Assembly (NCBI GenBank): GCA_030432925.1 | Contig: JAUILT010000008.1 | Coordinates: 1-50,842, forward strand | Origin: Bdellovibrionia bacterium | GTDB taxonomy: Bacteria; Bdellovibrionota; Bdellovibrionia; Bdellovibrionales; UBA1609 | Direction: 5' to 3' | DNA: 50,842 nt | Part shown: one piece after another, positions 37,874 to 50,342 of the stretch | Layout of the letters: each line of letters opens with the position of its first letter | How positions within the stretch are numbered: the stretch's first letter is position 1 | Notes under the pieces: generated by a model | Seen by the model: only the letters and a program-made list of their open reading frames with translations | Told to the model about the DNA's origin: nothing | The model's database searches: none | Translations under genes and position numbers: made by a program

Positions 37874-39388
37874 ATGACATTCCATAATTTATACCAATCA
37901 GGTTTGAATTTTCCAAAAGCCCCTCAAATATTGCACCTCTTATTCGCTGATGTTATTAGTTTCCCAATGGCTCATGATACAATAGATTATTTCAAGCATG
38001 CTCAAGATATAAAAAAAAAGCTGGATGAGGTCAGTCCAACTATGTGCCTCGCCAAGTGGCTCCAAGTCAGTATGCACTTAACTAACGGATTGACTCAAAG
38101 CTGTTACCACCCACCCACTCATAAAATTTCTCTTGATGATTTAAAAAAAAGCCCCAAGGCCCTCCATAATACTCAAGAGAAAAAGCAACAACGCAAAATG
38201 ATGAGAGAGGGGAAGCGGCCTCCCGGGTGCGAATACTGCTGGAAAATCGAAGATTCTCCTGAAAATCATCTAAGCGATCGCTATGTGAGAAGTGGTGAGC
38301 CTTGGGCTCGTGCACATTTTGATGAGGTTGTAAATAATCCGTACGACTATAATGTGAATCCTAGATATGTAGAAGTCAATTTCAACCACGCCTGTAATTT
38401 CAAGTGTGCCTATTGCTCACCTCACATATCAAGCAGTTGGGCTCAAGAGATAGAAAACCACGGCCCTTACCCAACACTTATTCCTCACAATGATATTTCG
38501 TACTTTCAGCAGCAAGAACTAATGCCAATTATCAAAAAAGGGGACAACCCTTATGTCGAGGCTTTTTGGAAGTGGTGGCCAGATCTTTATAAAGATATCA
38601 AGGTTTTTAGAATGACTGGAGGCGAGCCACTGATTGATAAAAATACCTTCAAGGTCTTGGACTGGGTCATCGAACACCCTCGCCCAGACCTTGAATTAGC
38701 AATCACCTCCAATATGTGCCCTCCCAATAAACTGATGAATCAATTTATCAACAGCATACAACATATAATGAGTGAAAAAAAACTCAAACGCTTTATGCTT
38801 TTTCCTAGTGTAGATACGTGGGGTCGACAGGCTGAGTACCTGAGAACCGGCTTAGATTTCAATATGTTTTGGAACAACATCCACAGATACTTGACAGAAG
38901 TTCCAGATGGCCTTCTGACCTTTATTATCACCATGAATAACCTCTCTGTTCCCAAGTTGAAAAAACTCATGCAGGGAATTCTCGAGCTTCAACATAAATA
39001 CAATAAAACCCATCATCGTATTTTTTTAGATTGTCCTTTCCTCAGATATCCTGGCTGGTTAAGCCTTCAAACCTTACCTAACGAATATTATCATTATATG
39101 AACGACGTCATTCAATATATGAAAGACAACAAAGTTCAAAAGGGTTCTTACTATGGGTTCCGAGACTTCTGGATTGGAAAAATGGAGCGTACAAGAACTT
39201 GGATGATTCAGGAGCAACCTGAGGAAGAGCTGAATAAAAACCTTACTAATTTTTATCTCTATTTTAGCGAGTTCGACAAACGTCGAAAGACAAATTTTTT
39301 AAAAACATTTCCAGAAATGGAAAACTTCTGGAACATGTGCCGAAAACAATCTGAATTATTTGAAAATCAGACGGAGAGATCAAAGTGA
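37874..39388 (+). CDS. Twitch-domain radical SAM protein
   Basis: The radical SAM cluster motif CNFKCAYC lies at residues 174-181 ('EVNFNHACNFKCAYCSPHIS'). 'FRMTGGEPLIDKNTFKVLDW' is the GGE motif and 'ELAITSNMCPP' follows. Upstream, 'MCLAKWLQVSMHLTNGLTQSCYHPP' and 'PPGCEYCWKIED' carry four cysteines that could bind an auxiliary cluster, as in twitch/SPASM-type proteins. The substrate is unknown; related proteins occur in surface-glycan and peptide modification loci. A TATACT box (37858-37863) lies 10 bases before the ATG, so the mRNA may be nearly leaderless; ATG 37970 is an alternative start. The next gene overlaps by four bases. Confidence 0.85.
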   Translation: MTFHNLYQSGLNFPKAPQILHLLFADVISFPMAHDTIDYFKHAQDIKKKLDEVSPTMCLAKWLQVSMHLTNGLTQSCYHPPTHKISLDDLKKSPKALHNTQEKKQQRKMMREGKRPPGCEYCWKIEDSPENHLSDRYVRSGEPWARAHFDEVVNNPYDYNVNPRYVEVNFNHACNFKCAYCSPHISSSWAQEIENHGPYPTLIPHNDISYFQQQELMPIIKKGDNPYVEAFWKWWPDLYKDIKVFRMTGGEPLIDKNTFKVLDWVIEHPRPDLELAITSNMCPPNKLMNQFINSIQHIMSEKKLKRFMLFPSVDTWGRQAEYLRTGLDFNMFWNNIHRYLTEVPDGLLTFIITMNNLSVPKLKKLMQGILELQHKYNKTHHRIFLDCPFLRYPGWLSLQTLPNEYYHYMNDVIQYMKDNKVQKGSYYGFRDFWIGKMERTRTWMIQEQPEEELNKNLTNFYLYFSEFDKRRKTNFLKTFPEMENFWNMCRKQSELFENQTERSK

Positions 39389-40101
39389 AGCGAATTCAAA
39401 ATATTATACCAACACTAAAAATTGGTATAATCTCCTTTAAAAAAGGGTTTGCCTCTCAAGGAGTCAAAAAAACATTTCAGATGTTTCATGAGGCTCTGGT
39501 GGATGAATACTACAATCACAAATGCGGCCTGGACGTAAGTGGATTCTATGATCCCGACGACTGTAAAAAGCCTCTGCCAAACAAGAGTTTTGCCAACTAT
39601 TATCAACCCGTCAGGTACCGCCCCTTCTTCAAACTCTTTAAGCATTACAATATTCTCCCAAAAGGCCGATTTGTAGACATTGGTGCTGGTAAGGGAAAGG
39701 CCATTGCACTTGCTGCACAAGTCGGCTACAGAGATCTTCTTGGGATCGAACTCTTCGAAGACCTAACAAAAATCGCACAGAAGAATCTTGATAAATTCCA
39801 GAAATCTAAATTTATATACAATGAACTTAATATAAAACTAAAAACTATGGATGCCACGGACTATCAATTTCATAAAAATGATCACTTCATTTTTATGAAT
39901 GACCCGTTTTCAGATGAACCCATGAAAAAACTAGTGAGTAATATTATTCAATCTTGGAATGATCATCCTCGTGATCTATGGGTGGTTTTTAAAAATAATA
40001 ACCAGAGACATTTACCCAGTATCTATGAACTCAAGAAATTTTCTAAATATAGTGTTTTTGAATTCTCAGGAAATTATTTTGAAATTTTTAAATTTCAATA
40101 G
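39385..40101 (+). CDS. Class I SAM-dependent methyltransferase
   Basis: A 238-residue methyltransferase. Motif I is 'FVDIGAGKGKAIALAAQVGY', the acidic residue follows in 'LLGIELFEDLTKIAQKNL', and motif IV is 'HFIFMNDPFSDEPM', an N-D-P-F motif. The gene starts GTG, overlapping the radical SAM stop as GTGA, so the two proteins are translated together and probably act in sequence. The substrate is unknown. The first codons hold an inverted repeat (39403-39431) that could fold in the mRNA. It overlaps the convergent Amt-like gene by 14 bases. Confidence 0.8.
   Translation: MKRIQNIIPTLKIGIISFKKGFASQGVKKTFQMFHEALVDEYYNHKCGLDVSGFYDPDDCKKPLPNKSFANYYQPVRYRPFFKLFKHYNILPKGRFVDIGAGKGKAIALAAQVGYRDLLGIELFEDLTKIAQKNLDKFQKSKFIYNELNIKLKTMDATDYQFHKNDHFIFMNDPFSDEPMKKLVSNIIQSWNDHPRDLWVVFKNNNQRHLPSIYELKKFSKYSVFEFSGNYFEIFKFQ
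39403..39431. repeat. Inverted repeat in the 5' coding part of the methyltransferase
   Basis: ATTATACCAA (39403-39412), a nine-base loop and TTGGTATAAT (39422-39431) form a perfect 10-base stem. The arm ends share TATACCAA/TTGGTATA with the large inverted repeat at 24385-24437. It could restrict translation or be a degenerate copy of the same repeat. Confidence 0.55.
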
Positions 40102-41170
40102 AGCTTTCACCATGAATCAAAATATCTGGAGATTCTATTTCTTGCCTCTCTGTGAGAACAATGGGAGTTACCATACTCCATCCCTTGAAAATGAAAAATG
40201 TTGCTGCCCAACAGGTTAGGCCTGTTAATAATGGCAAAAGAATCTCTGTCTGAATCTGAAAATCTGAAAAGTGGATTCCAACACAGATCGCACCCACCCA
40301 ACTGGTTATAAAGTGACTGGAAAATACCTTCATTTCATCATCAATTCTTAAAGCTTTTTCTACAAAAAGCGCACAATAAAATGCCATCACAGTCCCTACG
40401 AAAACAGCAAACAATGCCATGTTCACACTGAGCCACCCCGCACCAGGAGTAATGACAACAAGCCCTGAAATCATTCCAAAAACACCTCCTTTAATAGAAA
40501 CTCTTTGTGGAGGGTGCCACCTGTCCAACCCTGACCAGGTCAAAAACCCCATTGCTCCGGCAAGGAGCGTATTCAAAATTGCCTGGGTCTGTTCAAAAGG
40601 GGAGTCGGCACCAGCAGCATTAAACCCTAGCCATCCCAAAAAAACCAGTCCAGCTCCTAATGAAAATAACTCTAAGTTTGAAGACTTTTTCAAATTAAAA
40701 AATGCAAACCGTCGCCCTTTGGCCATTGCCAAACCCAGGGCACTGGCCCCCGTTGTTGTATGTACTAATAGTCCTCCTGCAAAGTCCTTAAGGCCCCACT
40801 GCTGAATTAAAAACCCATCTGGCCGAGTTATCTGAAGAAAAGGAAAATAAATAAAAATTTGCCAAATAAATATTCCCAACAGGGCTGCCCTGCAATTCAG
40901 ACGCTCTATCCCACTTCCTATAAGAATTAAAGCAGCAATACTTAAAAATAGAGATGATTGAGCCTCCATCCAATGACCTGAAAATGAACTCCCCAGAATT
41001 GCTGACAAAAAAGGAAATACAACAATATGTAAAATTAGACTTAAAAAAAGAACTGTCAGAGATTTATAATTTGACGACAATGAGAAGCCACGACGACTGA
41101 AGCCCGAGCTCATGATCACGAGGCCCAATGCCATAATTAACAACATAGATAGTATCCAAGCTTGATCCAT
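40088..41170 (-). CDS. Divergent ammonium-transporter-family (Amt/MEP/Rh) protein
   Basis: A polytopic membrane protein of about 360 residues, shorter than typical AmtB. Family features are 'DFAGGLLVHTTTGASALGL' (with the first pore His), 'GLVFLGWLGFNAAGA', 'GAMGFLTWSGLDRW' and 'GMISGLVVITPGAGWLSVN'. The second pore His may be in 'SSHFITSWVGAICVGIHF', where the usual H-G-V-G-G is changed to H-F-I-T-S. It would conduct ammonia or a related small solute. No GlnK-like gene lies beside it. GGGAG precedes ATG 41170; TTG 41182 is an alternative. It is divergent from the AsnB-like gene. Confidence 0.8.
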   Translation of the reverse strand: MDQAWILSMLLIMALGLVIMSSGFSRRGFSLSSNYKSLTVLFLSLILHIVVFPFLSAILGSSFSGHWMEAQSSLFLSIAALILIGSGIERLNCRAALLGIFIWQIFIYFPFLQITRPDGFLIQQWGLKDFAGGLLVHTTTGASALGLAMAKGRRFAFFNLKKSSNLELFSLGAGLVFLGWLGFNAAGADSPFEQTQAILNTLLAGAMGFLTWSGLDRWHPPQRVSIKGGVFGMISGLVVITPGAGWLSVNMALFAVFVGTVMAFYCALFVEKALRIDDEMKVFSSHFITSWVGAICVGIHFSDFQIQTEILLPLLTGLTCWAATFFIFKGWSMVTPIVLTERQEIESPDILIHGESSIEI

Positions 41171-41259
41171 CATCTCTCCCAATAGACTCCATGGTAAGAA
41201 CCCCTTATTCGGAGATCAAGTTGTTTCTCTCCGTTAGCTCTGGTAGGGTCACAAGCATG

Positions 41260-43095
41260 TTTGGCAAAATTTCTCTAGACAACCCCGAATCTCTGAATCT
41301 CGAGGTGAACACCTATTCAAACAACCGCTTTAAGCAATGTCACAAACGTGCTTTTCGCCCAGAATACACTGAGAATTTCCAATCAAAAACCTTGGTTTTA
41401 GGAACCTTGCTACTCAACAACAAAAAAGCCACTGGCCCACAAGCCGTTAAGCTCCTCAAAGAATCCAATGAAAACTTGAAAAAATTAGATGGGTTATTCT
41501 TGCTCATTCATTTTGATGCTGCCAGTAAATCACTGGATATATTAAATAACAATTATCAACTGACCAAATTTTATTACACTGTCGTTGACAATCAACTTTT
41601 ATTCTCCCATCAATTAAGCCTGTTACTCCCTCATTTGAAAGAGCGCAAACCTCACTTTCCTAGCCTTCTAAACTTTTTAAAAAATGGTTTCAACCAGTCT
41701 GAACTAACTCAAATTGAAGGAGTTAAAAAGCTTCTCCCCTCTCAGCACCTCACAGTATCCAATGGACAAGTGAATATTAAAAATCACTGGGACAAGCATT
41801 ATGTTACCCATAGACAACCTTTTGTAAAAATAGAAAGTAAACTTGATGAATATGAAAGCATCTACCAAAATACAATCCGTAGCTATCTTGAGGCTCGAAA
41901 GCCTGAAGAGCTTGTAACCCTTCTCAGTGGAGGGCATGATACTAGTTTTCTTTTAATACAGGCCTCCAAAGTCTGGAGTCGTCCCATTCACTGCTTTACA
42001 ACAGTCTTTCCTGGATGGAGCTTTTCAGAACAGTCCTATGCAGAATCTACTTGCAAAAAATTTGGGGGGATTTTTCATCCACAGGAGTTTTCCAGTAATA
42101 ACCTAGATCTTATTATTGATTTAATTCACAGCTGTGAAGAGCCTGTTCTGGGATCCAGCCTTCCCCTGCATACACTAGCTAAAAGCGCAAGCCTGTATAC
42201 AGATACTATCATGGGTGGTGACGGTGGTGACACTCTTTGGGGGGAGTATCACCCCGTAGGCGAATATCATCGATGGGCTCGTCACTGGCCCCTGACACTA
42301 AGGCGTCTCACCCATAAAGCAACTCTGTTGTTGCGAAATTCCTCAGACTGGGAACGCTTTTGGGAGCTAGAGCACGTAGCGGGCCTATTTGCTCGTAAAA
42401 ATATGTATGACAACTTTCTTGGAGAACTGTGCACCTATCGACATTTTTCACCACAATTTCTTAACGAAATTCTCATTCCAGAATTTTCTCAACAAAGTTC
42501 AGCCAAAAGCTGTATGGAAATCGCATTCAATAAAAATAATTTTGATGAGGCCTTGATCGAAGGGAAGCTTCTTAATGGATTTTTTACTTATCAGTCCTTT
42601 CAACAAACTCGCTCAATGAATGCCTTTGGGATGGAGTTTTTTCTTCCAGTCATTCAAAAAGATCTTATGGACTTTGTTAACTCCCTACCAATGAACTGGA
42701 TCAACGGAGGAACTACGTTTCATCGACTCATAAATAGTAAATCTACAAATCGTAAATTTCATAAATTTGCCCTCGCCCGATATCTAAAGAAAGAAGAAAT
42801 TTACAACAGGAGTTTTGATATACCTTGGCACCTGATATGGAAAGACAGAGGCGCTACCCTAGAGTTGGCCCGAAAGGCTCTTAAAAAACGAAGCTGGTTT
42901 CAACCCGATACCATTGATATGATTTTTAATAATTTCCTTTCTCAAAAAAATAAGGATTATGAACTGCTAGAGTTAAAATCCCATGGCTACAGGATCATGG
43001 CCTTACTATCTGTAGAGGTTTGGGCCCGTCTCTTTATTGACCAAGCAATATTTAAATCTGATTCTAATATTTCATTGGACGACTTTCTTGCTTAA
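41260..43095 (+). CDS. Asparagine-synthetase-like protein lacking the glutaminase cysteine
   Basis: ATG 41260 begins MFGKISLDNPES where canonical AsnB has MCGI: the nucleophile Cys2 is replaced by Phe, so the N-terminal Ntn-hydrolase domain should not release ammonia from glutamine. The synthetase domain is intact, with the PP-loop 'LLSGGHDTSFLL' at about residue 223, 'CEEPVLGSSLPL' and 'IMGGDGGDTLWGEY'. Similar loss of Cys2 is known in lasso-peptide cyclases and beta-lactam synthetase, which form amide bonds without glutamine. In this glycan cluster it may use free ammonia or another amine. ATG 41191 upstream is possible but would bury MFGK. Confidence 0.8.
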   Translation, partial: FGKISLDNPESLNLEVNTYSNNRFKQCHKRAFRPEYTENFQSKTLVLGTLLLNNKKATGPQAVKLLKESNENLKKLDGLFLLIHFDAASKSLDILNNNYQLTKFYYTVVDNQLLFSHQLSLLLPHLKERKPHFPSLLNFLKNGFNQSELTQIEGVKKLLPSQHLTVSNGQVNIKNHWDKHYVTHRQPFVKIESKLDEYESIYQNTIRSYLEARKPEELVTLLSGGHDTSFLLIQASKVWSRPIHCFTTVFPGWSFSEQSYAESTCKKFGGIFHPQEFSSNNLDLIIDLIHSCEEPVLGSSLPLHTLAKSASLYTDTIMGGDGGDTLWGEYHPVGEYHRWARHWPLTLRRLTHKATLLLRNSSDWERFWELEHVAGLFARKNMYDNFLGELCTYRHFSPQFLNEILIPEFSQQSSAKSCMEIAFNKNNFDEALIEGKLLNGFFTYQSFQQTRSMNAFGMEFFLPVIQKDLMDFVNSLPMNWINGGTTFHRLINSKSTNRKFHKFALARYLKKEEIYNRSFDIPWHLIWKDRGATLELARKALKKRSWFQPDTIDMIFNNFLSQKNKDYELLELKSHGYRIMALLSVEVWARLFIDQAIFKSDSNISLDDFLA

Positions 43096-45021
43096 AAGCT
43101 CTCTCATGATTTTTAGCTTTGAGACATGGAGCCTTGAACGACGATTCTCTGGCCATGAGCGCTCTAAATCGTTGTAAATATATTTAGACTTCAAAAAGTC
43201 TTCTGAATAATAGGAAATATAAAATAACATCTCTTTAATTTTAAAAATATACGAACTCTGCGGGCTGCTCGATAGCCATGCTTTAAAATACTTTTCAACA
43301 TCTTTAAAAACTGGCTCTCCTTTACGACTGAAGTGCAATATTTCGCTCCCCATAACTTTAATAAGATGATTTCCTAGTGGCCCTTCCAGAGATGGAAAAA
43401 ACTGGTCTTCGATTAAAGTGAATGGACCCATAATTAAAAATAAATCTGAAATATCTTCGGCAAATAAACTTCGAACAATTTCATGAATTTGGTCCCCTTC
43501 GCGAACAACACCACCTCTATAGCCTCTGTAAAAAAAACTTGCACCTTGTTTTGGCTGTAAATAGAACTCTGGAGCCACCAACGTTTTTGGCTCCCAACTT
43601 TCTTCACTGAGAACCGTAAACATAGCAATTAAATTAGAGGCTCCAGAATGATCATTAATGTATCTATAAACTGAACGAAAGTCCGAGCCATAGTTATAGA
43701 GGTCGGAAACGTGTAATTTTTTTTTAATATAAAGCGCTCCTCCCATCGCCATAAAAACGGCTATAAGAACCTGTGTCGACAATCTAACCTTACACAAAGA
43801 ACATAGTTTTTTTTCATGATTGCAGAGAGTAAGAACTGTTAGTAAAAACACAACAACATAACAAAGAAAGTACCGTTCAAAAAAATCCCAATTAATCGTA
43901 ATCTGAAAAACTGCTGTGAATATGAATGGAAGAAAAATAACTCCAACAAAAGAAAGAGCATAGGAAATACGAATTCTGTTGTCTTTATTTTGTAAGATCA
44001 GAAGCATCAATGCCCCAGCTCCTACCAATAATAAAGTCCCATAAAAAGGGATCATATCAAAGACACGAATTGCATGAGTCCACCACCTAAAGTCTAATAA
44101 TCCAATAAATCGAAGTCCCCAGGAGTTCACACTCTGAAATTGATTACGAATAATGCTCTCCATAACAATGCCATAGAGCAATGGCAAAAATGTCAAAAGT
44201 GCTGCTACTTGAGCCATCGCCACTTTCAATAAAACTCCCTGTCTCTGCTCTACAATAAATCCAATAACTATCAGCATTAGTATGGAGTAAAGCGGCAAAG
44301 CTAATGACTGAAGACCAATTGTTAGACAAAAAATATACGTACCAATAAAAATTCTGATCCAATCATTTCTTTGAAAGGATTTTGACATGATAGGCGACAT
44401 GAGAGTGCAGATCCAAAGCAAACAGACAAAAACACCTGTTATATTTGGTCGCCCCTCAAAAGAGTAACGAATGAGTATTGGTGTCAACCCTAAGGACAGT
44501 AGCCATAATAAAAATATTTCCCCTCTCATTTTCATTATTCTTCCCAAGAGTGCCCCCACAAGGACACAAGCACTTCCAAAAAACAAAGATACAGACCTTA
44601 ACCAAGCTTCAGTAGCCCCCATATAATCAACAACTGCTGTAGAAATAAGATAGTAAAACGGAGGCTGTTGTTGAATAGCTGATTCCTGAAAAGGAGTTAA
44701 AGAGTTTGCCACCTGAACATACTCATCTAACCAAATAGAAATATCCCACGCATAACTCCACCTCAAAAAAGCTGTCGGTAAAAATACTACTACTGCCATT
44801 AATACCCAAGGGTTCATTATCGATAAAGTTGGCCTACCGCTTTTGTACATCACCCAAGCAAGAGCTATTGAAGCGCATAACGTCGTCACTATATACCAAA
44901 TATAACTGTAGATATGCCAGCCACTAAGTTCATATGGTGACTGATAGAAGCCAGAGATAAACATAAGAGTCAAAATAAGAAGTAATGATACATTGAGTGT
45001 CCACTCTTGCTGAGCACTCAC
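43072..45021 (-). CDS. GT-C fold membrane glycosyltransferase (family 39-like)
   Basis: A protein of about 650 residues with roughly ten or more membrane helices. The first loop carries 'DISIWLDEYVQVANSLTPF', whose D-E pair is the GT-C catalytic signature, followed by 'QQQPPFYYLISTAVVDYMG', the family 39/ArnT-like P-P-x-x-Y segment. The C-terminal ~200 residues are soluble. Such enzymes transfer a sugar from a polyprenyl-phosphate donor to an acceptor on the outer face of the membrane. GTG 45021, with GGAGAG upstream, overlaps the AsnB stop (GTGA); TTG 45045 is in frame upstream. It converges with the AsnB-like gene, overlapping by 24 bases. Confidence 0.78.
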   Translation of the reverse strand: MSAQQEWTLNVSLLLILTLMFISGFYQSPYELSGWHIYSYIWYIVTTLCASIALAWVMYKSGRPTLSIMNPWVLMAVVVFLPTAFLRWSYAWDISIWLDEYVQVANSLTPFQESAIQQQPPFYYLISTAVVDYMGATEAWLRSVSLFFGSACVLVGALLGRIMKMRGEIFLLWLLSLGLTPILIRYSFEGRPNITGVFVCLLWICTLMSPIMSKSFQRNDWIRIFIGTYIFCLTIGLQSLALPLYSILMLIVIGFIVEQRQGVLLKVAMAQVAALLTFLPLLYGIVMESIIRNQFQSVNSWGLRFIGLLDFRWWTHAIRVFDMIPFYGTLLLVGAGALMLLILQNKDNRIRISYALSFVGVIFLPFIFTAVFQITINWDFFERYFLCYVVVFLLTVLTLCNHEKKLCSLCKVRLSTQVLIAVFMAMGGALYIKKKLHVSDLYNYGSDFRSVYRYINDHSGASNLIAMFTVLSEESWEPKTLVAPEFYLQPKQGASFFYRGYRGGVVREGDQIHEIVRSLFAEDISDLFLIMGPFTLIEDQFFPSLEGPLGNHLIKVMGSEILHFSRKGEPVFKDVEKYFKAWLSSSPQSSYIFKIKEMLFYISYYSEDFLKSKYIYNDLERSWPENRRSRLHVSKLKIMRELLSKKVVQ

Positions 45022-46769
45022 AGAACTCTCTCCGTAGAAGACCAAGTTTTATAAATTTTAACAAGATCCTCTCTCTTGCTCTGCAAAAAACCTTCTGACT
45101 CTACTTTTGAAGCCCCTGTCTGATAGGTAAAAGGAATTTTACCAGGCCGTGGTATGCCATGGTATTTACAAAGATTCCGAACTAATGTCTTTCTCTCCAT
45201 AAATCCCAAAAGCATCTCATCAGGGGCTGTAAATATCATTTCCACCAAACGATGATCTAAATAAGGAACTCGCCCCTCCATACCACACCATCCTGTAATC
45301 TTGTCTAACTTCAGCAGATTATAGTTGGGAAGCCAGCTCTTCATTTCAAGGTAAATTAATTTTTTTAAAAAAGACTGATCAACAACTTCTGCCACAATAT
45401 CCAATGTTTCTTGATTCAGAGGTTCAGCCTGGCTTCCCAATAATTGCCTCCTTTGCTCTATGTTGAATACATCTACAACTGAGTGGTAGGAACTTGCAAA
45501 GTCATTAGTCCTGGAAATTGCATCCCGCAAGCGTGCCACCTCCTCAAAGCCCAATCGAGCTGGATACAATTTCTGTAGTAAGGGTGCGGTCATTCGAACA
45601 AAAAGTGGAAGAGCCATAAAAGCCATGTCTCGCAAAACGTGTGGCATAGACCATACAGCATTAAAAAAGTAATGGTGTCCGTAACCGGCAAAGAGTTCGT
45701 CAGCCCCCTCTCCACTCAAAAGGACCTTGACCTTTCCTTTAGCAAACTCAACCACCCCTAGCAAAGGGCTAATAATAGAATCACCAAGAGGCTCTTCTAT
45801 AGCCTTAAGAGACTCTTCAAAATTTTCTTTAACATGCCTATAGATAAAATGTCTCATCTGATGACTTTGAGTAAACATTTGTGCTCGAGCTAAATCTTTT
45901 TTCGAATTCCTTGAACTTGGAAGTTCACAAGTTAATCCAACTAAAGATTTATCACTATTTGTTAAGGCCAGTTTTGCAATAAGAGTTGAATCCATGCCTC
46001 CTGACAGCAATATACCAATGTCCACTTGTGATCTCATACGAATACGCACAGAGTCCTCCAGGACCTGTGAAAACTTTGAGTAACTCCAGGAGGTTTTGCC
46101 TTCGAAGGGTGTCCAATATGTTCGAGTATCCCATTTTAAATCCACCCCTACAGTAATTATAGTTGCCGGTGCCACTTTCTGAACACCAGAAAAAACTGTT
46201 TTTTCACCCCGCACATACCTCAAAGCGTAAAATGAGTTTAGTGCCGAGGGATTTAACTCCGGCTTCTCAGCTTTTATAAAAAGACCTCGGACTTCTGAAG
46301 ATACGCGAAATACCTCTCCCTCTCTTCTAAAATAAAGAGGTTTAATCCCCAGGCGATCTCTAATCAGGTGGAGCTTTAAAGCCTTTCTGTCGTACCAAAC
46401 AATAGCAAAGTCACCGTTCAATTTTTTGACAAAATCCAACCCTTCATGAAAAAGGCCTTCAAAAAGAACCTCCGTATCACCCGTTCCATAAAAGTGGCAC
46501 TGATATCTACTTATTAGGTACTTCTTCAATTCTAGAAAATTATAAATTTCACCGTTGAAAGCTAAGCAGTATCCATCTCTAACCTTCGGCTGTCGACCAG
46601 CCTCCCCGACATCCTGAATAGCCAATCGAGCATGGCAAAGCCCCAGTGAGCCGCCATTAAAAATCTCTTGCCCGTCCGGCCCCCTATGTTGAATAGATCT
46701 TACCTGCTCCCACAATTCTTGATCAGAAATCAGCCCACTCGGCTTATAAATACCTCCTATTCCACACAT
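45018..46769 (-). CDS. asnB: Asparagine synthase (glutamine-hydrolysing) family protein
   Basis: A complete class-II amidotransferase: MCGIGGIYKP with catalytic Cys2, 'RSIQHRGPDGQEIF', 'NGEIYNFLELKKYL' and 'GDTEVLFEGLF' in the glutaminase domain. In the synthetase domain are the PP-loop 'LLSGGMDSTLIAKL' and 'VLLSGEGADELFAGYGHHYF'. It converts aspartate or another carboxylate with glutamine to the amide. In polysaccharide loci relatives amidate uronic acids, which fits the UDP-sugar dehydrogenase nearby. ATG 46769 after AGGAG is chosen so that Cys2 becomes the N-terminus after Met removal. It overlaps both neighbours in a four-gene operon. Confidence 0.88.
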   Translation of the reverse strand: MCGIGGIYKPSGLISDQELWEQVRSIQHRGPDGQEIFNGGSLGLCHARLAIQDVGEAGRQPKVRDGYCLAFNGEIYNFLELKKYLISRYQCHFYGTGDTEVLFEGLFHEGLDFVKKLNGDFAIVWYDRKALKLHLIRDRLGIKPLYFRREGEVFRVSSEVRGLFIKAEKPELNPSALNSFYALRYVRGEKTVFSGVQKVAPATIITVGVDLKWDTRTYWTPFEGKTSWSYSKFSQVLEDSVRIRMRSQVDIGILLSGGMDSTLIAKLALTNSDKSLVGLTCELPSSRNSKKDLARAQMFTQSHQMRHFIYRHVKENFEESLKAIEEPLGDSIISPLLGVVEFAKGKVKVLLSGEGADELFAGYGHHYFFNAVWSMPHVLRDMAFMALPLFVRMTAPLLQKLYPARLGFEEVARLRDAISRTNDFASSYHSVVDVFNIEQRRQLLGSQAEPLNQETLDIVAEVVDQSFLKKLIYLEMKSWLPNYNLLKLDKITGWCGMEGRVPYLDHRLVEMIFTAPDEMLLGFMERKTLVRNLCKYHGIPRPGKIPFTYQTGASKVESEGFLQSKREDLVKIYKTWSSTERVL

Positions 46770-48376
46770 GGAAGCTCCTGTGTCCATTGACTTCTGCCCT
46801 GAATCTGAGCCCGCGAATGACAGCCAGAAAAACTGTAGTTAGATTGGGGAACGTAGCGAGAAGGAAACTCCACAGTTTCATAGATCACCTGATCCGACTT
46901 TACTCCAATAACTTTTGTATTTAATATAAGGTTTTCGCCTTCCCAATCAATGATTCTCACTACGTGAGCCCCCTTTTCTTTCCAGGAAAACATAAGAACT
47001 CTTCGGATCAAGTTTTTAAGACTCATAGATACTGATGGGTGAAACCCGAAAAATATAAAAAATAATCTGAATGCCAAAAATTGAAGTGGAGAAAAAACAG
47101 GATTTTTAAATACACGAAATACAGTAACTACTTTAATATTTTTCTCTTCAATTTTTATATCTGAACAACTATGGCCTGAGGTTTTTAACTTTACTCCTGA
47201 CTGAATAAAAATATCTCCCTGCTGAAAATAAAGCTCTCCTTTGGGTACATGAAAAATTAAGCAACGAAGACCAAACTTCATATTTCCAACTACGTACAAG
47301 TCACCCTTGCGAAAAGCAAATAAACCTGCACCCTCTAAAATGATATTCATTTTTTTATTCTCAAACGGAAGATTTTCCAGCACCTCAGAAGTATCTAAAG
47401 CGACTGTCATCGCCTTCATCATCTCTGGAAGTCGATAAAGAAGATAATGATCCTCTTGAGTATGAGAGCCCAGAATTTTTTCCTCTATTAAGGACTTTAA
47501 AAGGTCACAAGAGAGTCTTTTTGCAATAGGAATCCATTGACCCCAATACTCCAAACCAAAATGAAAAACCACTGACGTAGATCTGCTCCCCACTCCACGC
47601 GCAAAACTTCCATCAGGAAAAATAAACAAACTTACAAACTGAATTTGCCTTTGAGCCAACTCCTTCCATCTATCTTCTCCAGTTAATTCATGCAGTCGAG
47701 CTAAAAAACTGATCGTTGCCGTTTGATACCCAGGATCTGCCCCATCGTATTCTAAAGACCAGCCCTCTTTTTCATGACATCCTTGGAGAAATTGATTTTT
47801 AATTTTTTTTAACCCTTCGCTCAAACTCTCCTCTTTTAACAAATACTTTGCTTGAGAAATTGCCAATACTGCTAATGCCTGATGATTGGAGAGAACATCT
47901 TTCTCTTCGTATTTAATTAAGTATCGAGCACCTTTTGAAAACATTCTTTGCAATTGCTGTGTGGTGAGATCGCTCCAATGACTTCCAGTAAGTCTCCATG
48001 CCTCAAATATAGAATTCATTATATATGCTGTGGGGCCAGCCCATCCTCTTTCATTAAAATACCATTCATCAAAGGACCCATCCCATTTTTGCAATCTACA
48101 CGTGAACTGAACAGCTCCCTGAATCCATTGCAGCAGCTGCTTCTTAAGGGTTGAGTCTGTTTCAAAAGCCCACAAATGTGCAAGAACTTCTATCCCCTGC
48201 TGCTGACTCGCTGAAGGGAAATCAATGATTCTTTGATGCCAAAATTTTCTGTCGAAACACCCAAAAGTGGAACTAAATGGGCGCCGATCCAATTGACTCA
48301 AGACCCTTGAAACCTGTGGACTAAGATACTCCCAATATTTTTTTTGACGAGAATTTATTTGGTCAACCGATACCAT
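46757..48376 (-). CDS. Alpha/alpha-toroid plus beta-sandwich protein (heparinase/lyase-like)
   Basis: The N-terminal ~330 residues consist of paired helices with Trp/Gly/Asp-rich turns ('LQKWDGSFDEWYFNERGW', 'GWSLEYDGADPGYQTATISF', 'GSFARGVGSRSTSVVFHFG'), as in alpha/alpha-toroid enzymes. The C-terminal ~200 residues look beta-rich ('GAGLFAFRKGDLYVVGNMKF', 'GENLILNTKVIGVKSDQVIYE'), as in heparinase II/III-type lyases. No signal peptide is visible, and the lyase Tyr/His catalytic residues cannot be assigned. It could bind, trim or epimerise the polymer. It overlaps the GT2 and AsnB genes. Confidence 0.6.
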   Translation of the reverse strand: MVSVDQINSRQKKYWEYLSPQVSRVLSQLDRRPFSSTFGCFDRKFWHQRIIDFPSASQQQGIEVLAHLWAFETDSTLKKQLLQWIQGAVQFTCRLQKWDGSFDEWYFNERGWAGPTAYIMNSIFEAWRLTGSHWSDLTTQQLQRMFSKGARYLIKYEEKDVLSNHQALAVLAISQAKYLLKEESLSEGLKKIKNQFLQGCHEKEGWSLEYDGADPGYQTATISFLARLHELTGEDRWKELAQRQIQFVSLFIFPDGSFARGVGSRSTSVVFHFGLEYWGQWIPIAKRLSCDLLKSLIEEKILGSHTQEDHYLLYRLPEMMKAMTVALDTSEVLENLPFENKKMNIILEGAGLFAFRKGDLYVVGNMKFGLRCLIFHVPKGELYFQQGDIFIQSGVKLKTSGHSCSDIKIEEKNIKVVTVFRVFKNPVFSPLQFLAFRLFFIFFGFHPSVSMSLKNLIRRVLMFSWKEKGAHVVRIIDWEGENLILNTKVIGVKSDQVIYETVEFPSRYVPQSNYSFSGCHSRAQIQGRSQWTQELPCVE

Positions 48377-49083
48377 AATGCCCTAGACCCAGTTCTGATT
48401 AGTGGAATGGCCATTTTTCGAATATATTTACTGCGAGAGTGAACAACCCTTGAATATCCATGCACTCTTTCATTCCAGATAGACTCAATTTCAACAATTT
48501 TTAAACCCGCAATAGCCACACATAAAATTGACTCTTGCACGTAAGAATGGTTCGCTGTCAAAAAAATGGATGCCGCTGCAGCCTTTGTATAAAGCCTTAG
48601 TCCACCATGTGAATCTGTAATCGGTGTTCCTGTTGCCAAAGTCAGATATTTAGAAAGAAGAAAAACCCCTATTCTATTTCCTAACGGATAACGGTACTTA
48701 ATATGATCCCCTCCCAAAAAACGAGATCCCAAAACCAAGTCCGCCCCCGTCTTTTGCCGAGTTGTCCAAAACCTTTCCATTTCAGACAATGCTGTTTGGC
48801 CATCACCGTCGATTGTAAAAACGTAATCAGCACCCCTCTGAAGGGCCCAATGAATTCCTATGGCACAAGAATGCCCCAGCCCCCTATTCTCACCTTTGAC
48901 GACTTGGGCACCCATTGCTTTGGCAATTTGTGGAGTTTTATCATCAGAATCATCAACAACTGCGATTTCCAATGACAATGAGGAGAACCCCTTCTCCCAC
49001 TCTTTGATTCCATCAATGACCGCGTCAATTGTGGCCTCTTCGTTTTTTGCCAAAATAAGAGCCACAACTTTTTTTTGTTTCAA
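48355..49083 (-). CDS. GT2 family glycosyltransferase (DPM1-like)
   Basis: A GT-A fold enzyme of 242 residues: 'VVALILAKNEEATIDAVIDG', 'LEIAVVDDSDDKTPQIAKA', the metal-binding D-x-D in 'FTIDGDGQTALSEM', 'DLVLGSRFLGG' and 'TDSHGGLRLYTKAAAASI'. The order matches polyprenyl-phosphate hexose synthases. It would charge undecaprenyl phosphate with a sugar that the GT-C enzyme then uses. The start is TTG after GAGGG. It is the first gene of a four-gene minus-strand operon and is divergent from the dehydrogenase gene. Confidence 0.85.
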   Translation of the reverse strand: MKQKKVVALILAKNEEATIDAVIDGIKEWEKGFSSLSLEIAVVDDSDDKTPQIAKAMGAQVVKGENRGLGHSCAIGIHWALQRGADYVFTIDGDGQTALSEMERFWTTRQKTGADLVLGSRFLGGDHIKYRYPLGNRIGVFLLSKYLTLATGTPITDSHGGLRLYTKAAAASIFLTANHSYVQESILCVAIAGLKIVEIESIWNERVHGYSRVVHSRSKYIRKMAIPLIRTGSRALWYRLTK

Positions 49084-49145
49084 AGCGCCCTCTAATTAGA
49101 TAAAATCAGCCTTCAGCCTAATGGAATTTGGATAGGAGGTCAACG

Positions 49146-50342
49146 ATGCTCGTCAACGTCTACGGCTGTGGATTTGCAGGCATCGTATCAGCACTGGCTT
49201 TATGCGAACGAGGCCACCATGTTACAGGAATTGATATTGACCCTAGCAAAGTGCAGTCCCTACTCAAGGGGCGCTTTTCTGGATCCAGAAGTACCATTGA
49301 TGATCTGATCGGTAAACACCTAGATAAAAGCCTAACCTTTCGTAATTTCGGCAATGAGTCCTTTGACGTTGATGTGGCGTTTGTAGCCCTTCCCACTCCT
49401 TTCGATGGAAAGTCTTTGGCGATTAACGGAATCAAAGCTTGCTGCAACCATATATTACAAAATAGAGCCTCTCATAAAAAAACGACCCTATTTATACGAA
49501 GCACATTGCCCATTGGAGGACTCATTCAAATAGAACGAGTATTGGAATCCGACAATCAATTAGAATCGGGAAAAGATTTTCAGTTATTTTACTACCCAGA
49601 ATTTATGAGAGAGGGCACGGGGCTTCAAGACGTAGAATATCCTCCTTTGTCAGTATTGGGCCTTAGCAAAAGTCTTCCAGAAGCTCCACACCTTGAGCTG
49701 ATTGCTGCTGGCGGAAGGTTGCAGCAAGTTCCATCTAAAGAGGCCGAGGCCCTCAAGCTACTCAGCAATGCCTTCCATGCAACCAAAGTCACTTTTGCGA
49801 ACGAGGCCATGAGAATCTGCGATACGAATGAGCTTTCAGCCATAAATGTTATGAACCTATTTTGTCAGGACACTAAACTCAATATCTCCACCAAATATTT
49901 ACGCCCTGGCTTTGCTTGGGGAGGAGGGTGTCTTGGAAAAGATACTAAAGCGCTAATAGCCACAGAATCAAACACCCCCCTTCTTAATAGCCTTATACAG
50001 TCTAACTCAAATCATATTCAGTTTTTTTCTGAAAAAATCCTCAAAAAATCTCCAGCCTCTATTGGGTTTATTGGGGCCAGCTTCAAAGAAAACGTCAACG
50101 ATGTTCGAGACAGTCCTGTTACAGAACTTATTCGAATCTGCAATAAAGCTCCCTCTGTTTGTCAAATTTTTGTGCTTGATTCAAACAAAGATCTACTTGA
50201 ACACTTAAATAATTGCAAAAAAGTAAAGTTCTGCTCTGAGTTACCTGAACTTTCAGATGCAGAAGTTATTGTATGTAGAGTGTCTGATTACAAAAATATC
50301 AAAGATTTTCTCACTAAAGATCAAGTTTGCATTCAACTGTAA
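49146..50342 (+). CDS. UDP-glucose/GDP-mannose dehydrogenase family protein
   Basis: The N-terminal Rossmann motif is 'VNVYGCGFAGIVSALALCERG', then 'VTGIDIDPSKVQSLLKG'. The central 'VAFVALPTPFDG' and 'TLFIRSTLPIGG' follow, and the catalytic Cys is at about residue 261 in 'FAWGGGCLGKDTKAL'. The C-terminal 'GFIGASFKENVNDVRDSPV' and 'LDSN' complete the fold. It oxidises a nucleotide sugar twice with NAD+ to the uronic acid. The spacing resembles GDP-mannose 6-dehydrogenase or UDP-glucose dehydrogenase; the substrate is not decidable. ATG 49146 follows AGGAGG. A GT-C gene follows after six bases. Confidence 0.9.
   Translation: MLVNVYGCGFAGIVSALALCERGHHVTGIDIDPSKVQSLLKGRFSGSRSTIDDLIGKHLDKSLTFRNFGNESFDVDVAFVALPTPFDGKSLAINGIKACCNHILQNRASHKKTTLFIRSTLPIGGLIQIERVLESDNQLESGKDFQLFYYPEFMREGTGLQDVEYPPLSVLGLSKSLPEAPHLELIAAGGRLQQVPSKEAEALKLLSNAFHATKVTFANEAMRICDTNELSAINVMNLFCQDTKLNISTKYLRPGFAWGGGCLGKDTKALIATESNTPLLNSLIQSNSNHIQFFSEKILKKSPASIGFIGASFKENVNDVRDSPVTELIRICNKAPSVCQIFVLDSNKDLLEHLNNCKKVKFCSELPELSDAEVIVCRVSDYKNIKDFLTKDQVCIQL

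Follow-up and report, generated by a model that had tools for sequence, protein, structure and literature searches.

We examined a divergent gene pair in a 50,842-nucleotide stretch of the Bdellovibrionia contig JAUILT010000008.1 (positions 1 to 50,842; here, the window). One gene encodes a membrane protein of the Amt/MEP family, and the other encodes a homologue of the asparagine synthetase AsnB that has lost the glutaminase nucleophile Cys2 (here, Cys-less AsnB). Both open reading frames (ORFs) were found where the original prediction, which had proposed ammonia-fed amidation at the membrane, had placed them. The layout is divergent as claimed, but the spacing of 89 bases becomes ∼83 bp when ATG 41257 is taken as the start of the Cys-less gene. 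This start (MFGK) is likely because M-[FLI]-G is the N terminus of most members in a family alignment of 13 homologues. The pair is part of a conserved cassette with a core of four further genes (Table 1), which encode a nucleotide-sugar dehydrogenase, a family 2 glycosyltransferase (GT2), a protein with a uronan-lyase/epimerase fold (P541), and a second AsnB that carries Cys2. Across genomes, the presence of the Amt tracks the Cys-less AsnB, not this core.

Recurrence of the gene pair

A profile search recovered the Cys-less AsnB family from 14 of 369 Bdellovibrionota genomes (designated by G numbers, with G000 for that of the window). A scan for two family patterns, one of them DWERFWE, across 84,980 species genomes returned the same lineages and no relative outside the phylum; the one match filed as Deltaproteobacteria was G135, a member of the same phylum. 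Cassette-type Amt genes occurred in 10 of the 14 genomes with Cys-less AsnB and in none of the 355 without it (Fisher p = 9e-17, uncorrected for relatedness), and none of these ten genomes had a second Amt. The genome of the window is 96% complete, and an Amt search of it found this copy only.

Neighbor mapping placed the two genes head-to-head in the window and in the five further genomes listed for the intergenic region in Table 1. In G058 and G051 they belong to a single operon run, and in G137 they are ∼6 kb apart. In G135, a truncated Amt of the cassette type lies at the end of a contig, where linkage to the Cys-less gene was not shown. Elsewhere, G184 encodes a conventional Amt only, with its cassette contig cut near the Cys-less gene, and G107 (78% complete) has Cys-less AsnB and no Amt. 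The pair is thus divergent in at least five genera and shares a cluster in two more, a recurrence that rules out chance neighborhood. Mobile spread of the Cys-less family was also rejected, as plasmids and phages yielded no close match to it.

When only P541-bearing genomes were considered, cassette Amts were present in 8/11 with Cys-less AsnB and in 0/14 without it (p = 1.5e-4, uncorrected for relatedness). Three genomes (G016, G007, and G033) have the core without Cys-less AsnB, and the absence of Amt from these cores rules out the channel as a core component. This tracking is the strongest argument for the ammonia-feeding idea of the original prediction and fits a dedicated ammonia supply.

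Residues kept and lost in the two proteins

The Cys-less AsnB matched the synthetase profile PF00733 (E = 7.2e-19), and its GATase_7 match was below the cut-off (14.4 versus 25 bits). The predicted replacement of Cys2 held for the whole family, with Phe in the window and mostly Phe, Leu, or Ile in homologues. A Cys2 in an upstream extension was ruled out, as the in-frame sequence between the preceding stop and this start (41149-41256) contains no Cys. When the family was aligned jointly with Cys2-bearing AsnB proteins, all 13 Cys-less homologues proved to have lost Cys2, Arg49, Asn74/Glu76, and Asp98. With the entire glutaminase signature gone, and not Cys2 alone, the enzyme is predicted to be incapable of hydrolyzing glutamine, as originally claimed.

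The synthetase site was said to have an intact PP-loop. The loop itself (LLSGG[HN]DTSF) is invariant across the family, and the motifs GDGGDT[LM]WGEY and EIYNRS[FY]D[IVM]PW are conserved in the 13 homologues, but the site appears not to be wholly intact, with Asp and Asn aligned at the Glu348 and Lys449 positions of AsnB. The Glu348 position is Asp (GDGGDT) in every Cys-less member, as hhalign and MAFFT agree. Because these changes are family-wide, they look like a changed reaction and not like decay.

An AlphaFold model of the Cys-less AsnB (mean predicted local distance difference test [pLDDT] score, 83) had its best fold matches in TsnB9, the human and Escherichia coli asparagine synthetases, carbapenam synthetase, and beta-lactam synthetase. 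The nearest NCBIfam model was TIGR03108 (eps_aminotran_1; 3e-22), although at 79.1 bits the score is far below the cut-off of 816.9. The lasso cyclase model NF033535 gave 36 bits against a cut-off of 525, and no precursor peptide was noticed near the gene, where small ORFs were not searched systematically.

Loss of the glutaminase with retention of the synthetase is the hallmark of beta-lactam synthetase, carbapenam synthetase, and lasso cyclases, two of which are among the fold matches above. The Cys-less AsnB might accordingly be an amine ligase that couples an amino-sugar, an amino acid, or a polyamine to the activated carboxyl of a uronate or peptide, with the Amt as no more than a nitrogen-supply gene travelling with the cassette. 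The altered Glu348 and Lys449 positions would suit such a reaction, as would the dispensability of the Amt in G101 and G229 (see below). Conversely, neither an obvious amine substrate nor a precursor peptide was noticed, the distribution of the Amt matches that of the Cys-less enzyme rather than that of the core cassette, and the sequence is closer to the uronamide-forming eps_aminotran_1 than to lasso cyclases. We therefore regard the ligase as a tentative and somewhat unlikely alternative.

The Amt of the window scored far above the curated PF00909 cut-off (E = 1.9e-35; 122.8 versus 23.2 bits) and below that of the NCBIfam amt model TIGR00836 (149 versus 343 bits). It is indeed shorter than AmtB, as originally described, but at the short end of the ∼361 to 424 amino acids (aa) of its own clade. 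The reported alteration of the second pore motif is real (SSHF versus SSHG), but it sits after the His, and both pore histidines remain. The window Amt and all full-length cassette Amts retain the ammonia-conducting pore residues, namely the twin-His residues (H168 and H318), D160, and the Phe gate (F107 and F215).

The S1 site (F107, W148, and S219) has been described as the site for high-affinity ammonium scavenging (PMC10433425). It is not fully kept in the window, where W148 is replaced by R and S219 by G, and W148 is lost in 4 of the 9 full-length cassette Amts. Because this scavenging site is eroded, cassette Amts may operate at higher ammonium. In a phylogenetic tree, a branch supported at 62/78 set the ten cassette Amts apart, and their branches were long relative to those of conventional Amts. 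They thus appear to be a distinct, fast-evolving type, with modest support for a single clade. The ratio of nonsynonymous to synonymous substitutions (dN/dS) was 0.084 in one species pair (G058/G051), indicating purifying selection; this value and the open reading frames rule out a decaying Amt.

The lost S1 residues (W148 in 4/9 cassette Amts and S219 in the window) and the long branches would also be expected if the degenerate outer site marked a protein that no longer imports ammonium and acts as a sensor, an ammonia exit path, or a carrier of another small amine used by the Cys-less enzyme. We consider this very unlikely, given that D160, H168, H318, F107, and F215 persist in all full-length members and that the family profile matches E. 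coli AmtB over its full length (2e-87). Separately, Amt homologues lie in long open frames of 728 and 870 codons in G040 (G040:C93 and G040:C37; loci L008 and L009), where the Amt domains are probably fused to something else.

The surrounding cassette and its proposed glycan role

Table 1. Features of the gene pair and its neighborhood in the window
Feature	Position	Strand	Basis or remark
Twitch-domain radical S-adenosylmethionine (SAM) protein, possible accessory gene	37874..39388	+	NF033640 1.2e-99
Class I SAM methyltransferase-like protein, possible accessory gene	39385..40101	+	DOT1-type PF08123 6e-7
Amt/MEP-family protein	40091..41173	-	361 aa from ATG 41173; 364 aa from TTG 41182; ORF span 40088-41182
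Divergent amt / Cys-less asnB intergenic region, ∼83 bp	41174..41256		Same head-to-head layout in G077, G091, G094, G162, G182
Cys-less AsnB-like ATP-pyrophosphatase, 612 aa	41257..43095	+	PF00733 match, family alignment, model
Membrane protein, possibly GT-C glycosyltransferase, 657 aa	43072..45045	-	WLDE...QQPPFYY motif read by eye
AsnB, intact class II glutaminase (MCG, R49, N74/E76, D98) and PP-loop	45018..46769	-	TIGR01536 1.3e-94, above cut-off
P541, cytosolic-looking toroid and beta-sandwich, uronan-lyase/epimerase fold	46757..48376	-	Model and Foldseek
GT2, polyprenyl/dolichyl-phosphate hexose synthase-like	48355..49083	-	PF00535 2.4e-15
Nucleotide-sugar 6-dehydrogenase (UDP-glucose/GDP-mannose type)	49128..50342	+	TIGR03026 1.2e-70, above cut-off; PF03721, PF00984

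The dehydrogenase, GT2, P541, and Cys2-bearing AsnB share a neighborhood in most loci with long enough contigs, although gene order varies. Alignments confirmed the complete set of glutaminase residues in the AsnB next to the pair, and the GTG-started AsnB proteins of G091 and G094 also keep Cys2. The nearest NCBIfam models of the GT2 were a dolichyl-phosphate hexose transferase, AglJ, and PpgS, all below cut-off. A model of P541 (pLDDT, 78) had its best Foldseek matches in a chondroitinase, a GAGase, a polysaccharide lyase family 17 (PL17) alginate lyase, and dermatan sulfate epimerase. P541 has no Pfam match and no signal peptide was seen, a sequence search of the PDB gave chance matches only, and its cassette homologues are 29 to 35% identical. 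Together, these genes suggest synthesis of a uronic-acid glycan with carboxyl amidation, as in uronamide formation of the WbpS type.

The large membrane protein has no Pfam or NCBIfam match. Weak homologues of it occur in the G162 and G094 clusters, and a PMT_2 protein adjoins the G101 cassette. The G229 cluster includes a homologue of the radical SAM protein, and in G162 another one lies next to GT2-P541; the G162 cluster also has a homologue of the methyltransferase-like protein.

Three side observations concern related loci and the wider window. Elsewhere in the genome of the window, at G000:C124:32000-43627 (L108), a further, distant P541 homologue (∼41913-43448) is accompanied by a Cys2-bearing AsnB and a GT2 of its own, possibly a second cassette of this type that lacks Cys-less AsnB. 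On a Bacteriovorax sp. DB6_IX contig (L038, G107), the Cys2-bearing AsnB of the cassette is split over several frames, reflecting a pseudogene or an assembly error. The window also contains a large serine recombinase ∼3 kb from a transfer-messenger RNA gene (Rfam RF00023; 11709-13502 and 16502-16851), a possible integrated element.

Cassettes on long enough contigs carry both types of AsnB, and AsnB and beta-lactam synthetases dimerize. The Cys-less protein might thus be a noncatalytic or half-active partner in a hetero-oligomer, in which the Cys2-bearing AsnB contributes the one glutaminase and the Cys-less subunit is a specialized synthetase or a scaffold; the Amt would then raise ammonium in the cytosol, to be used in glutamine synthesis or by both subunits. 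Such a role would accommodate the altered Glu348 and Lys449 positions and the several genomes in which the Amt gene directly adjoins the Cys2-bearing one or overlaps it. We nevertheless judge it clearly unlikely: the PP-loop, GDGGDT, and YNRS[FY]D are conserved throughout, which is unexpected for a dead enzyme, and core cassettes exist with the Cys2-bearing AsnB alone and without the Amt.

Proposed ammonia supply and relation to known systems

Our preferred reading, to which we assign a rough probability of just under 40%, is that the cassette makes a surface uronic-acid glycan and that the Cys-less AsnB amidates a carboxyl with free ammonia supplied by the linked Amt. Taking gene content, conservation, glutaminase loss, pore residues, and co-occurrence as the observations, we infer the substrate, the reaction, and the direction of ammonia supply as follows. 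The dehydrogenase would form a nucleoside diphosphate (NDP)-uronate, the GT2 would load the uronate onto polyprenyl phosphate, and P541 might modify or edit uronate residues. The Cys2-bearing AsnB would take nitrogen for carboxyl amidation from glutamine, whereas the Cys-less AsnB would activate a carboxylate with ATP and accept free ammonia. For that last step, the linked Amt would be retained as the ammonium source in cells without another Amt. Canonical AsnB enzymes are stated to accept ammonia in place of glutamine (PMC13060819), and literature searches found no described Amt and AsnB pairing of this type.

Several observations weigh against this reading. G101 (complete) and G229 (99%) keep the Cys-less AsnB and the cassette without any Amt, and therefore the channel is not obligatory for the enzyme. 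In G058, G051, G091, G094, and G137, the Amt gene directly adjoins the Cys2-bearing asnB or overlaps it, and the Amt could therefore serve that enzyme or general nitrogen supply. The same conserved cassette also includes an intact, glutamine-dependent AsnB, which the original prediction did not mention. By hhalign and MAFFT alike, every Cys-less homologue has Asn at the Lys449 position (YNRS[FY]D), in an alignment that is gappy nearby; this residue is unusual for an amide-forming member, and the reaction may differ from simple amidation with ammonia. Finally, free ammonia diffuses, and the ammonia-dependent enzymes AsnA and NadE work without a linked channel.

Ammonia-fed amidation at the membrane, as first proposed, is thus partly supported: it gains from the glycan context and from an Amt that follows the Cys-less AsnB, and it loses from a dispensable Amt and an apparently replaced catalytic Lys. 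The channel may plausibly feed this enzyme, although the claim is weakened by the absence of the Amt from two near-complete genomes, by its position against the Cys2-bearing asnB elsewhere, and by the apparent change of the catalytic Lys. The full proposal is that a dedicated Amt feeds an AsnB-type synthetase that has no glutaminase and that amidates, at the membrane, a uronic-acid glycan which may still be lipid-linked; in our assessment it is rather unlikely. An Amt gene within a conserved cluster for a sugar-acid surface glycan of predatory bacteria and their relatives, beside an amide-forming enzyme that can no longer draw ammonia from glutamine, suggests but does not prove delivery of ammonia to this glycan through a dedicated channel.

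Class II amidotransferases tunnel ammonia from a built-in glutaminase and so avoid free ammonia. If the reading is true, a lineage that dropped the glutaminase and recruited a linked ammonium channel would have replaced supply through a protein tunnel with supply through a membrane channel. The cassette would also mark glycan amidation in Bdellovibrionota, a phylum of predatory bacteria whose surface chemistry is relevant to predation and little known. Three uncharacterized families (Cys-less AsnB, cassette Amt, and P541) gain a shared context.

Each of these families resembles known proteins in part. The cassette Amts share whole-length homology, the twin-His residues, and the Phe gate with E. 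coli AmtB and conventional Amts; unlike these, they are linked to glycan genes rather than to nitrogen regulation, have an eroded S1 site in several members, and evolve much faster. P541 shares its fold with uronan lyases (chondroitinases, PL17 alginate lyases, and PL33) and dermatan sulfate epimerase, but at ∼7 to 11% identity and with no Pfam match or visible signal peptide, and it may be an epimerase, a lyase, or neither. The top fold match of the Cys-less AsnB, the hydroxyamidotransferase TsnB9 (PDB 7ylz), is only 12 to 13% identical to it. Like beta-lactam synthetase, carbapenam synthetase, and lasso peptide cyclase, the Cys-less AsnB combines the AsnB fold and a kept PP-loop with a lost glutaminase. 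Those enzymes close rings with an internal amine and are encoded in natural-product clusters, whereas the window protein has a glycan context and Asn at the catalytic Lys position.

The AsnB-type enzymes WbpS, WbqG, and PGN_1234 convert uronates to uronamides in glycan pathways (PMC7468200; PMC6025236). As with these TIGR03108 enzymes, the gene in the window lies in a glycan cluster with genes for NDP-uronate synthesis, here the nucleotide-sugar dehydrogenase. Unlike them, its product lacks the glutaminase residues, scores 79 bits against a family cut-off of 817, and is accompanied by a second, intact AsnB and by an Amt.

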